The position numbers and the translations under genes were made by a program. From positions 4,263,501 through 4,327,500 of the forward strand of contig NZ_JACDXJ010000001.1 of NCBI RefSeq assembly GCF_013520865.1: a stretch of DNA of 64,000 nt, given 5' to 3'. Numbering within the stretch: position 1 is the stretch's first letter; the number at the start of each line of letters is the position of its first letter. The DNA is from Microvirga mediterraneensis (GTDB lineage Bacteria; Pseudomonadota; Alphaproteobacteria; Rhizobiales; Beijerinckiaceae). Under the pieces are notes generated by a model, which made no database searches, was not told the origin of the DNA, and was given only the letters and a program-made list of their open reading frames with translations. Positions 28,307 through 41,716 of this stretch are shown one piece after another.

Positions 28307-28537
28307 ATGCCCGTTTCCTGGAAGCGCTCCCACAAAACCTCTCTCTGGCGTCGGCTCGATCCGACGCAGGCGGGGCGGGTCATGGCGGATTGCTATGGTG
28401 AGGGGGCCGGGGCCGAGGTGCTGTTGCGGGCTTTTCTGGAGGAACGGGACATGAACCCGGAGGCGGTCCGCTTCTGGCTGCGGGTCTATGAGCTGCTGAA
28501 CGGGGCCGGCAAGCCGCAGGACGCCGTGCCGGGCTAG
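28307..28537 (+). CDS. small hypothetical protein
   Basis: 76 residues; the C-terminal two thirds (MADCYGEGAGAEVLLRAFLE onward to YELLNGAGK) look like a compact helical protein with normal GC-rich codon use. It resembles small stress-associated Rhizobiales proteins only in style; no family is recognised. It marks the return to GC-rich sequence after the ATPase/XRE islet. No convincing ribosome binding site is visible, and an internal ATG at 28382 is an alternative. Confidence 0.45.
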   Translation: MPVSWKRSHKTSLWRRLDPTQAGRVMADCYGEGAGAEVLLRAFLEERDMNPEAVRFWLRVYELLNGAGKPQDAVPG

Positions 28538-28630
28538 AGCATTTTTCGGTGAAGTGGATCCGGTTCACCGTCAAAAAATGCGGCAAAGCAAACACGAGAG
28601 CTCGTTCTATTGCATGGAACGAGCTCTAGG
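28537..28630. repeat. R4 two-hairpin element, copy 1
   Basis: Hairpin A: GGTGAA-GTGGATCCGG-TTCACC flanked by GCATTTTT/AAAAAATGC. Hairpin B: GAGCTCGTTC (28598-28607) pairing with GAACGAGCTC (28617-28626). The second copy at 41625-41716 keeps both, with compensatory changes in hairpin B. It starts at the stop codon of the small gene and may double as its terminator. Confidence 0.8.
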
Positions 28631-29006: not shown

Positions 29007-29050
29007 GTTCTCACTTTGTTCTTGACAGGGCGGACAAGCTCGGCTATATC
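29007..29050 (+). promoter_or_regulatory. LexA-boxed sigma70-type promoter of structured RNA copy 1
   Basis: LexA box GTTC-TCACTTT-GTTC at 29007-29021 abuts the -35 TTGACA at 29022-29027; a 17-bp spacer leads to the -10 TATATC at 29045-29050. Expected start near 29057. The identical layout occurs at 41277-41320 on the minus strand. GTTC-N7-GTTC is the established alphaproteobacterial LexA site. Confidence 0.75.
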
Positions 29051-29056
29051 GTTCGC

Positions 29057-29304
29057 ATTCCCGCCCGCCGAGGGGCGCGCTCGCGAGGCGTCAGCCAGTG
29101 CGGGGCGGGAGGCGGTCCCGCCGCAGGTCTCGCACACCTGTGGTCGCGGGAGGTCGACCTTGGGCGCTCCCCAGCTGGTCCACCTGAAAAGAACCGCGTG
29201 CGAGGCGCCGTCCGGCTCTTCCACTCTCACTCTCACAGCGAGCCGGGCGACACACCGCACCCTCCCTCGACTGACCTTCAGCCCCGGGGCCGACCGGCCC
29301 CGGG
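29057..29304 (+). ncRNA. candidate SOS-controlled structured RNA, copy 1
   Basis: An unrecognised element shared with 41029-41270 (minus strand). Conserved blocks are GAGGGGCGCGCTCGCGAGGC near the 5' end and an approximately 90-bp core at about 29114-29201. The core holds an 8-bp hairpin CCGCAGGT (29121-29128) / ACCTGTGG (29136-29143) and GGGAG (29148-29152) / CTCCC (29167-29171). In the second copy the closing T-A pair of the first hairpin is C-G, a compensatory change. A GC-rich hairpin at 29283-29304 (CCCGGGGC/GCCCCGGG) may mark the 3' end; no U-run follows. Substitutions between copies mostly change residues in either coding frame, so an encoded peptide is less likely. The 3' end and function are unknown. 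Confidence 0.6.
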
Positions 29305-29366
29305 CGCGAAAACCCATGGCTCTTTCATCCCATTGATTTTCATCACCATCGCCCGGGAAACCCATC

Positions 29367-29639
29367 ATGATCGACGACGACGATATTCCCCTGTTCACCA
29401 TGCCCGATTTCGACGACACCCTGCGCCGCCTGTCCGACGTGTTCCTGATGCACCGCATCTGCCGCCGGCGCGCCTGCCAGAAGAACGAAAGCTGCCAGGG
29501 CGGCTTCGGGCCGCCCTGCTACCTGCAGCGGCGCCACCTCTTCGCCGATGCGCTGCTCTACGAACTGGACGAGTACCGCGCCTTCTGGCGGGACCAGCGC
29601 CAGCGGGCCATGCGCGAACCGTCATGGATCCGGCGCTGA
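29367..29639 (+). CDS. small Cys-rich hypothetical protein
   Basis: 90 residues. An acidic N-terminus (MIDDDDIPLFTMPDFDD) is followed by a basic, cysteine-bearing core: CRRRAC, then C and a GFGPPC ending, five Cys/Arg-rich positions that could bind a metal. The C-terminus is Trp/Arg-rich. It lies 62 bp past the probable end of structured RNA copy 1 and could be read from the same promoter if transcription continues. Family not recognised. Confidence 0.6.
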   Translation: MIDDDDIPLFTMPDFDDTLRRLSDVFLMHRICRRRACQKNESCQGGFGPPCYLQRRHLFADALLYELDEYRAFWRDQRQRAMREPSWIRR

Positions 29640-39437: not shown

Positions 39438-39452
39438 GTTCTCATTTTGTTC
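39438..39452. promoter_or_regulatory. LexA box (distal to dinB)
   Basis: GTTC-TCATTTT-GTTC, nearly the same as the box in the structured RNA promoters (GTTC-TCACTTT-GTTC). It lies 15 bp upstream of the DUF3072 start and about 150 bp upstream of the polymerase gene, so it may regulate either. Confidence 0.6.
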
Positions 39453-39602: not shown

Positions 39603-40847
39603 ATGCGCAAACCGACCGGTCTGGAGCGGCTCTATGTCGACTTCGATTCCTTCTTCGCCAGCGCCGAGCAGCACCTTCAGCCGCATCTGCGCGGCAGGCC
39701 CGTCGGGGTGATCCCGGTCGATTCCGAGCACACGGGCCTCATCGCCGTCAGCCGGGAGGCGAAGACCATGGGGATCAAGCGCGGCACCTTCGTGCGCGAT
39801 GCCCGCAGGCAATGCCCCGGCCTCGTTCTCGTGACGGCGCGGCACGAGCTCTATGTGCAGCTGCACAAGGAGATCATCCGGGCCATCGAAACCGTGGTTC
39901 CGGTGAAGGCGGTCTGCTCCATCGACGAGATGCTCTGCGCGCTCCTCCCCGCCGAGTGGCCGCAGGCGCTCCGGATCGGGCAGCGGGTCAAGGAGGCCAT
40001 CGCCACGGGGATCGGCCCTACCCTGACCTGTTCGGTCGGCCTCGGCCCGAACGACCTCCTGGCCAAGATCGCAGCCGAGATGGAAAAGCCCGACGGTCTC
40101 GTGGCCCTCCACCCGGACGACCTGCCCGGCCGCTTGCTGTCCCTCGATCTGACGGATATTCCCGGCATCGCCCGGGGCAACGCGGCGCGCCTGGCCCGCG
40201 CCGGGATCGCCGACATGGAGGCCTTGTGGCGGCTCCAGCCCAAGGAACTGCGCCGGCTCTGGGGCAGCGTCGAGGGGGAGCGGCTCTGGATGGGACTCCA
40301 TGGCCATACGGTGGAGCGCCCCGAGACGCAGCGACGGATGTTCGGGCATGGGCGCGTCCTGCCGGCGGACTGGCGCTCGCTGAACGGCGCCTATGCGGCA
40401 GCCCGCGTGCTCCTTGCCAAGGCCTCGGCCCGGATGCGCCGCGCCGGCTTCTCGGCCCGGGCGCTCGCCCTCTGGCTGACGGACAGGAACAGTGCCGGAT
40501 GGTACGGCGAGGAGCGTTTCCGGCCGACCTGGGACGACCCGTCCCTGCTGGCCTCGCTGAACCGCCTGTTCCTGCATGCCGAACGGGAGGAGATGCATCG
40601 CAGCCGCAGCGTGCATGTGGCCCTGCACGATCTGGTGCCGCTGGGCGAGATCGAGGAGGATCTGTTCGACCACACGCCGGAGGCGCAGCTCAAGCGCCGG
40701 ATGGAATATCTGTCGACCATCGCCGACCGGCTGAACGTCACCCACCGCAGGACCCTCCTCCACTGGGGACCATGGGTGACGATCCCCGGCGGCTATGCGG
40801 GGGCGAAGATCGCCTTCAACCGCATTCCCGATGCAGAGGATTTCTAG
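39603..40847 (+). CDS. dinB: Y-family translesion DNA polymerase (DinB/UmuC-like)
   Basis: 414 residues. Catalytic motifs: YVDFDSFFASAEQ (Asp, steric-gate Phe region) near residue 11, SREAKTMGIKRG, and CSIDEM (Asp-Glu pair) near 105. Helix-hairpin-helix DIPGIARGNAARL lies near 185 and the little-finger domain covers about 235-345. The CSIDEM variant and divergent palm suggest a UmuC-like group rather than classic Pol IV. No beta-clamp peptide was identified with confidence. LexA boxes upstream place it in the SOS regulon. Confidence 0.9.
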   Translation: MRKPTGLERLYVDFDSFFASAEQHLQPHLRGRPVGVIPVDSEHTGLIAVSREAKTMGIKRGTFVRDARRQCPGLVLVTARHELYVQLHKEIIRAIETVVPVKAVCSIDEMLCALLPAEWPQALRIGQRVKEAIATGIGPTLTCSVGLGPNDLLAKIAAEMEKPDGLVALHPDDLPGRLLSLDLTDIPGIARGNAARLARAGIADMEALWRLQPKELRRLWGSVEGERLWMGLHGHTVERPETQRRMFGHGRVLPADWRSLNGAYAAARVLLAKASARMRRAGFSARALALWLTDRNSAGWYGEERFRPTWDDPSLLASLNRLFLHAEREEMHRSRSVHVALHDLVPLGEIEEDLFDHTPEAQLKRRMEYLSTIADRLNVTHRRTLLHWGPWVTIPGGYAGAKIAFNRIPDAEDF

Positions 40848-41028
40848 AACTCTTACCGTCCTGGCCGCTCCCCAACCTGAGCCGGGGTCAGTTATGGGCA
40901 TCCACGCCTTGGCAGCGGTGCGGTTCCCAGGACGTTGGTGGCCGGGACTGATCCCCGGATCAAGTCCGGGGCCGGTCATGACGCGGGTGGAGCCGATGCT
41001 TGTGTCAAAGAGCCAGCACCTTTGGGCC
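40848..41028. repeat. gene-free stretch with R2-like palindrome
   Basis: No gene is supported from 40848 to 41733. This first part has a CCCCGGATCAAGTCCGGGG palindrome with flanking GGTCATGACGCGG (about 40950-40985), of R2 type. It lies beyond the 3' end of structured RNA copy 2. Confidence 0.5.
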
Positions 41029-41270
41029 CGCAGCTTGCGCTGCGAGCCTTTCGGGTTCGAGGGTGGCGCGTCGGGCAGCCCGGCTCGCTCGTGTGTGTTG
41101 ATGGAAGAGCCGAACTGCTCGTCACGCACGGTTCTTTTCAGGTGGACCAGCTGGGGAGCCCCCAAGGTCGACCTCCCGCGACCACAGGCGTGCGAGGCCT
41201 GCGGCGGGACCGTGCCTGCTCTCACTCTTGCGACGCCTCGCGAGCGCGCCCCTCGTCAGAGCAGATCTAG
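41029..41270 (-). ncRNA. candidate SOS-controlled structured RNA, copy 2
   Basis: Minus-strand partner of 29057-29304. The conserved hairpin is CCGCAGGC (41204-41197) / GCCTGTGG (41189-41182), in which the closing pair is C-G instead of T-A. The GGGAG/CTCCC stem and the CCAGCTGGTCCACCTG block are also kept. A CGCAGC-GCAA-GCTGCG hairpin at 41044-41029 may mark the 3' end. No gene lies downstream in this orientation (only the end of the oppositely transcribed polymerase gene), so the element is free-standing rather than a leader of a coding region. Confidence 0.6.
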
Positions 41271-41276
41271 GGCAAC

Positions 41277-41320
41277 GATATAGCCAAGGTTATCCGCCCT
41301 GTCAAGAACAAAGTGAGAAC
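41277..41320 (-). promoter_or_regulatory. LexA-boxed sigma70-type promoter of structured RNA copy 2
   Basis: Minus strand: GTTC-TCACTTT-GTTC at 41320-41306, TTGACA at 41305-41300, 17-bp spacer, TATATC at 41282-41277. Identical architecture to 29007-29050 even though the spacer bases differ. Confidence 0.75.
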
Positions 41321-41535: not shown

Positions 41536-41624
41536 GGTCAGGATGGGGTGGGGAGCACTCCTCCCCTCCAGGGGGAGGAAATCCGCGCGAGCCGTGACGA
41601 ACGAGGTCGTCGAACGAGGGCTTA

Positions 41625-41716
41625 GAGCATTCTCGGTGAAGTGGATCCGGTTCACCGTCGAAAATTGCGGTCAAACAAGAGAGGTGTTTCCACTGAGGTG
41701 GAAACACCTCTAGGCG
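41625..41716. repeat. R4 two-hairpin element, copy 2
   Basis: Hairpin A GGTGAA-GTGGATCCGG-TTCACC is identical in its core to copy 1. Hairpin B is GAGGTGTTTCC (41681-41691) / GGAAACACCTC (41700-41710); against copy 1 three paired positions change on both arms. It lies directly 3' of ilvE. Confidence 0.8.

Follow-up and report, generated by a model that had tools for sequence, protein, structure and literature searches.

A multicopy family of structured RNA genes with LexA-type boxes on the chromosome of Microvirga

Background

What does a promoter that carries an SOS box drive when no convincing gene follows it, and why does the same arrangement recur nearby? The question is raised by a stretch of 64,000 nucleotides of the Microvirga mediterraneensis chromosome (contig positions 4263501-4327500), referred to here as the window. 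The window holds two copies of one short element on opposite strands. In Alphaproteobacteria the consensus of the LexA operator is GTTC-N7-GTTC, and each copy begins with a box of this form. A sequence-only reading had proposed that the element is a damage-induced structured RNA rather than a protein gene.

Here we describe the structure of the element, its copy number and distribution, the evolution of its sites, and a small protein gene that accompanies some copies. The reading that we favour, with a probability of about one half, is a family of many genes for one structured non-coding RNA under SOS control, which would bind protein and act in trans. Other explanations are weighed where the evidence bears on them.

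Results

Two copies of the element in the window

Copy 1 occupies approximately positions 29007-29312 of the plus strand and comprises a box, a promoter and a structured RNA. The LexA (SOS) box, GTTCTCACTTTGTTC, of the form GTTC-N7-GTTC, lies at 29007-29021. It directly abuts the promoter at 29022-29050, which consists of TTGACA (29022-29027), a 17-nt spacer and TATATC (29045-29050). The structured RNA is placed at 29056-29312 by a covariance model match and by covariation, its 5' end being deduced from the promoter and its 3' end from the terminal hairpin. Within it, a 23-nt hairpin segment, GAGGGGCGCGCTCGCGAGGCGTC (29070-29092), is identical in 51 of 51 rows of the alignment described below. 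The terminal hairpin (helix 10, 29281-29305) has compensatory changes in five of its eight pairs and is followed by CTCTTT at 29320-29325. Further downstream on the same strand, an ORF at 29367-29639 encodes the companion small protein of 90 amino acids with four cysteines (CRRRAC...CQGGFGPPC).

Copy 2 lies on the minus strand at 41002-41320 and was identified from its sequence and with the covariance model. Its box is at 41306-41320 (contig C1 4304806-4304820) and its promoter at 41277-41305. The structured RNA (41002-41272; covariance model match 41125-41280) contains the invariant hairpin segment at 41232-41254 and the terminal hairpin, again helix 10, at 41025-41048. It is convergent with dinB, a Y-family polymerase gene at 39603-40847 of the plus strand, and faces the 3' end of that gene.

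The covariance model was built from 32 copies, copy 1 of the window included and copy 2 not. Copy 1 (29047-29200) scores 129.2 bits and copy 2 scores 138.4 bits. The next-best match in the window reaches 11.3 bits (E 0.27), and nothing else in it is notable. The earlier observation, an SOS-boxed RNA element with a near-consensus promoter and a second copy that has the same box, promoter and core, is thus confirmed. So is the change of the closing pair of the core hairpin from T-A to C-G, which reads CAGGT...ACCTG in copy 1 and CAGGC...GCCTG in copy 2. New relative to that observation are the number of copies, an end of the element near 29312, the small protein gene and the many relatives.

Generic promoter and terminator scans gave nothing above their thresholds, and no tRNA or tmRNA was found in the window. 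Short intergenic palindromic repeats (around GGTGAAGTGGATCCGGTTCACC) lie near both copies, at window positions 28536-28630 and 41624-41713.

RNA structure and coding capacity

The alignment comprises the 51 sequences that remained when 108 short-insert instances, all chosen by the exact 23-mer, were thinned at 85% identity. From the full set of 152 instances it leaves out 39 whose insert in one arm is longer and five that do not contain the measuring motif. RNAalifold predicts 49 pairs on these sequences, and 22 of the pairs show compensatory changes. Cells that can pair amount to 95.9% and fall to 38-49% after sliding by 1-3 columns. Double changes were found in 198 cells versus 64 +/- 9 after shuffling, and none of 500 shuffles was as high on any of five measures. 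The invariant 23-nt hairpin yields no covariation, the 51 rows having been selected by it. The z-score of single-sequence folding is modest (-1.85); the claim of structure therefore rests on covariation and not on energy. A long-range pairing between a 5' GAGGG and a 3' CCCTC has both strands nearly invariant, and among 145 instances the pair next to it is of a standard type in 124 and non-standard in 21, figures that include some rows in which a wrong 3' motif was picked.

Stops occur in 33-39 of the 51 rows in each of the six frames, so that 12-18 rows are open in any one frame. The spacing between two fixed motifs falls into all three classes modulo 3 (29, 16 and 6 of the 51 rows). The covariance model was searched against related genomes, the check that the sequence-only reading had suggested. 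Stem covariation was found, with no codon-type conservation and no Rfam family, and the interpretation as a structured RNA is supported on each of these counts.

Rfam 15 gave no match in the window at gathering scores. Its 4227 models presumably include Methylobacterium-1 and Rhizobiales-2. The element was likewise unmatched at gathering scores in 12 diverse loci, where the sole match was a tRNA in L067, and at E values up to 10 just two chance-level hits fell in the element region. These null searches of the window and the 12 loci rule out a known Rfam family, in agreement with the initial impression that no described family is involved. A blastn search of 72,556 plasmid and 50,697 phage records gave no match, and the exact 23-mer was absent from viral contigs; a plasmid, phage or viral origin was rejected on these grounds. 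No description of the element RNA was found in the open-access PMC literature, the scope of which excludes subscription papers.

The LexA-type box and the promoter

A perfect GTTC-N7-GTTC is present in 147 of the 152 distinct instances, which were collected by the exact 23-mer. In the genome of the window (G000) all 28 copies carry on their promoter the stricter form GTTCNNNNTTTGTTC, that is, GTTC-N4-TTT-GTTC. The genome has 46 sites of this form, of which 28 (61%) belong to element copies; the reversed control has two.

When instances were anchored on the -35 element (150 of the 152), a clear operator footprint emerged. The first GTTC is conserved at 97-99%, the next four spacer positions at 50-76%, the TTT at 91-99% and the adjoining GTTC-TTGAC at 97-100%. 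Upstream of the box, two adjoining bases reach 81 and 94%, and the 13 positions before those do not exceed 61%. Within the promoter, TTGAC is conserved at 97-100% and GCTATA at 95-99%, with 41-71% in the first half of the spacer (n=150 throughout).

Several of the 18 GTTCNNNNTTTGTTC sites of G000 that lie outside the element are 72-238 bp before genes. The boxed genes include two recA (PF00154), a Y-family polymerase (PF00817), a UvrD-type helicase (PF00580) and DnaB (PF00772); relative to the box as written, the helicase and one recA run in the opposite direction. In the window, such a box at 39438-39452 precedes dinB by 150 bp. Two further boxed genes resemble what we take to be imuA. We read the box of the element as an SOS (LexA) box because the same box adjoins the two recA genes, dinB and the UvrD-type helicase. 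The footprint, together with the repair genes that share the box, supports a placement of the element in the LexA (SOS) regulon. From the box, induction by DNA damage would be expected.

The 200 bp upstream of the lexA match of G000 showed no GTTC-N7-GTTC box. The two recA genes of this genome (L212 and L230) each lie beside a LexA-type box. More GTTCNNNNTTTGTTC sites lie near genes of uncharacterised function, such as L208 (G000:C1:2584912), which are candidate SOS genes.

Copy number and distribution

The chromosome of G000 carries 28 full copies, many more than chance would give, among the best 40 of 79 first-look candidates, which were scored. The search returned 29 rows, two of which are the ends of one copy across the circular contig junction. 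Eight copies form one sequence type (97-100% identical to the query), 18 form another (81-85%), and two are diverged. The copies sit between called genes in all orientations, and 60 of 62 have no overlap with an ORF called by a crude gene caller.

Matches were found by blastn in 40 of 48 Microvirga genomes, three of the 40 having just one or two weak matches. The fullest genomes have at least 16 to 18 among the matches listed. Deep covariance searches, in which 150 candidates were scored per genome, gave 34 copies in G014, 27 in G041, 19 in G032, 19 in G019 (one of them weak), nine each in G044 and G030, and none in G038. The seven Microvirga genomes searched in depth that have copies, G000 included, therefore hold 9-34 each. 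In all seven, every copy lies on contig C1; G000, G014, G041, G019 and G032 have other contigs as well.

Beyond the genus, weaker relatives of the RNA were found in a few other genera of the order. Covariance searches that scored 7-20 candidates per genome were positive in at least 8 of 149 genomes at family rank (four Microvirga and four in two other genera). At order rank at least 5 of 397 genomes were positive, four of them outside the family and in four families, and at class rank at least 1 of 385, that one being G000 itself. A repeat search of seven of the eight non-Microvirga genomes with the RNA gave 20, 8, 6, 5, 5, 5 and 1 matches at E<=0.01, partial ones included. In other genera, where copies were found with the covariance model, the hairpin segment GAGGGGCGCGCTCGCGAGGCGTC is similar. 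The copies read from these genera have no GTTC-N7-GTTC box, and other promoter-like sequences stand there instead. The RNA therefore appears to be older than its LexA control. Damage control would accordingly not be intrinsic to the RNA family, to judge by the relatives whose copies were read. In two other genera (L306 and L310 of G086; L254 and L258 of G515) a shared GAAAATAATCCT before TTGAC or TGGAC takes the place of the LexA box and is perhaps another operator.

Conserved sites and concerted evolution

The 28 copies of G000 were compared with the 34 of G014. Both flanks are conserved in the same order at 15 sites, and at one more the flanks are conserved with the element flipped. Several further copies of G000 share one flank with a copy of G014. 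Sequence identity was compared for 15 of these 16 flank-matched pairs; L040, L046 and L326 were left out for want of the exact core. Orthologues are on average 67% identical, best paralogues within the own genome 90%, and non-orthologues 66%. Copies at shared sites are thus far more alike within a genome than between genomes, which is concerted evolution. L066 is an exception, its orthologue (0.74) being closer than its best own paralogue (0.68). The copy at L067, which is accompanied by the small protein gene, groups with L332 of G014, which has the same gene and one shared flank (long branches, moderate support).

Some sites differ. The site of copy 2 is empty in G014, G041, G044 and G030, where dinB adjoins the aminotransferase gene. 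G009 and G036 do have a copy beside the aminotransferase gene, on contigs that stop short of dinB. On that side of the aminotransferase gene, no dinB was seen in G032 or G019. A gain of copy 2 is the simplest reading, with repeated loss as the alternative.

The strongest rival of our interpretation is a non-autonomous mobile (selfish) element, which would need the LexA-controlled promoter and the structured RNA for its own spread after damage. Such an element would account for the site of copy 2, occupied in G000, G009 and G036 and empty in the four genomes named, for a copy number that varies from 9 to 34, and for copies of one type that are 97-100% alike to the query within a genome. However, the likeness within a genome is explained by homogenisation at fixed sites, and 15 of the 28 sites are shared with G014 by both flanks, apart from the flipped one. 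In the five genomes that have several contigs, all copies found lie on the main one. The element, at about 320 bp, is too short for a transposase gene, and the plasmid and phage records and the 23-mer search of viral contigs held no trace of it. A selfish element is hard to square with old sites shared between species and with copies on one contig only, and we consider it unlikely.

Rearrangements were seen at a few copies. The flanks of L040 and L060 (G000:C1:4531500-4536500 and 1491300-1496300) are paired differently in L119, L126, L129 and L131: the right flanks of both surround one copy elsewhere, and the left flanks of both surround another. These swaps look like recombination between two copies, so that the elements would act as rearrangement points. 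Comparison of L055 with L344 of G014 shows a copy that has been inverted in one or other species, with the flanks conserved on both sides.

The companion small protein

The small protein family, represented by 22 members, has about 85-100 residues, an invariant C-x4-C-x5-C-x7-C and the motif GG[YF]GPPC. Its gene is present in 35 of the 48 Microvirga genomes with one to three matches each, one genome having it weakly. All 35 are among the 40 RNA-positive genomes, versus none of the eight RNA-negative ones (Fisher P 3e-6, with kinship ignored); the other five RNA-positive genomes have the RNA without the protein gene. Of 30 protein-gene loci, 26 have the RNA immediately before the gene and on its strand, and one of the other four begins at a contig edge. 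The RNA and the protein gene are thus linked, and the small protein may well be a functional partner of the RNA.

Two members had no family match in Pfam, NCBIfam or PHROGs. A search with all 22 members gave just weak hits in at most 4 of the 22, the best at E 0.004 (PADLOC) and 0.018 (Pfam), and none in the PDB. Structure prediction was poor (mean pLDDT 62). In the order-wide sample of 397 genomes, three weak hits to the protein lie outside the genus, with no RNA motif seen beside them, and no small protein was found in the four RNA-positive genomes outside the family.

In type III toxin-antitoxin and AbiF units an RNA and a protein gene stand side by side as one unit. A pair of this kind, in which the RNA restrains the small protein and the solo copies serve as extra antitoxin genes, would fit the 26 of 30 loci in which the RNA immediately precedes the protein gene. 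It would also fit the occurrence of the protein gene in none of the eight RNA-free Microvirga genomes and of the RNA without the protein in five of 40. Unlike those systems, the element has no tandem repeats, its small protein is unrelated, and many of its RNA copies stand alone. Membership among type III systems was rejected on the single RNA unit and on a protein of about 85-100 amino acids with at most weak family hits and nothing in the PDB. The RNA-positive genomes outside the family that have no such protein in the order sample also speak against a pair, which we regard as improbable.

Discussion

Mode of action

In the interpretation that we prefer, a family of SOS-controlled structured RNA genes, LexA would sit on the box that abuts the -35 element of every G000 copy and repress all of them. 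Cleavage of LexA triggered by RecA would free about 28 copies together and release a burst of RNA of about 260-290 nt. The RNA is predicted to fold into a 5' stem around the invariant hairpin, a closed multi-branch domain, a long 3' hairpin domain and the terminal hairpin. It would mainly bind protein, as a scaffold or a titrating RNA at high dose, rather than pair with mRNA; so elaborate a fold, a structured hairpin that does not vary and a small protein linked to the RNA all favour this role. The probable partner is the four-cysteine protein from the few copies that have its gene. Many copies would remain at old chromosomal sites, with other sites gained, and recombination would keep the copies alike in each genome.

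A bolder version can be offered as speculation and is, to our minds, rather doubtful. The element would represent a new class of DNA-damage ribonucleoprotein, in which some thirty LexA-switched, homogenised genes and a small protein of zinc-binding appearance produce an abundant particle. The particle would act on the chromosome during the SOS response and protect, hold or remodel it. The genes would be kept in the manner of rRNA genes, and an older many-copy RNA of the order would have been rewired to LexA in Microvirga.

Relation to known systems and significance

To our knowledge, it is rare for a bacterium to maintain one RNA gene in many dispersed copies, rRNA and tRNA genes aside. One RNA that is uniform over about 28 loci and accounts for 28 of 46 LexA-type sites therefore argues for strong selection for dose or for a driving mechanism. 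The closest systems seem to be LhrC and other multicopy stress sRNAs in kind, and DinR and other SOS sRNAs in control. The element differs from both in gene number, chromosome-wide homogenisation, fold and companion protein.

LhrC1-5 of Listeria are described as five copies of 111-114 nt that are induced by stress, depend on LisRK and bind target mRNA through CU-rich sites (PMC4132741). The element resembles them in having several near-identical free-standing genes under one regulator; it differs, as far as their description goes, in up to 34 copies, a larger fold and a LexA box (PMC4132741). DinR of Klebsiella is described as an SOS-induced sRNA that is processed from the 3' part of the dinI mRNA and pairs with ftsZ (PMC10907235). 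LexA-type control of an RNA is common to both, being deduced here from the box, whereas our genes are free-standing and have boxed promoters of their own (PMC10907235).

The SmelA075/SmelA099 sRNA family of Rhizobiales, reported as stress-related, has repeated small hairpin modules and copies on each replicon (PMC3927594). The element likewise has several copies per Rhizobiales genome, but with one complex fold and on the main contig only (PMC3927594). Methylobacterium-1 RNA (RF01712) is a structured RNA of Methylobacterium (PMC2864571); the element, in contrast, has no Rfam match, RF01712 being presumed among the models searched. naRNA4 of E. coli is described as a non-coding RNA from the repeated extragenic element REP325 (PMC6907758). 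The element is alike, by that description, in being an RNA from a repeated extragenic element. It differs in its LexA box, the consulted account of naRNA4 being one that makes no mention of LexA (PMC6907758).

For a genus of soil and root-nodule bacteria, the element would add an arm to the SOS response that is new and open to direct test. It also offers a natural system for the concerted evolution of dispersed bacterial genes. As a large RNA gene family apparently wired to the damage response, it has nothing alike in Rfam as searched.

Remaining alternatives

A nucleoid-structuring RNA like naRNA4, compacting or linking chromosomal DNA after damage, would suit the many copies and their confinement to the main contig. 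In G014 the copies are also spaced more evenly than random (CV 0.52 vs 0.96). However, evenness is significant in G014 alone of the seven genomes tested, and not in G000, G044, G041, G032, G019 or G030. The chances of such a role seem to us slim.

The copies might instead matter as DNA, with 28 of the 46 strict LexA-type sites acting as decoys that determine at what threshold and when the SOS response sets in, and the RNA as a by-product. The large share of GTTCNNNNTTTGTTC sites that falls within elements (61%) is what decoys would produce. Decoys would need the box alone, however, whereas the RNA fold is under strong constraint and RNA relatives elsewhere have no box, and we give this explanation very little credence.

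The idea that the element codes for protein, or is a plain repeat that makes no product, has next to no standing: long open frames cross the element on both strands in GC-rich DNA and 12-18 of the 51 rows stay open in any one frame, but the stops in 33-39 rows per frame and the compensatory base-pair changes led us to reject coding, and the promoter and box are conserved.

As a minor observation on the family of RNA genes, the copies tend to oppose the local GC skew of the 5 kb around them; the tendency is clearer in G000, where 6 of 28 agree with the skew, than in G014 (12 of 34).
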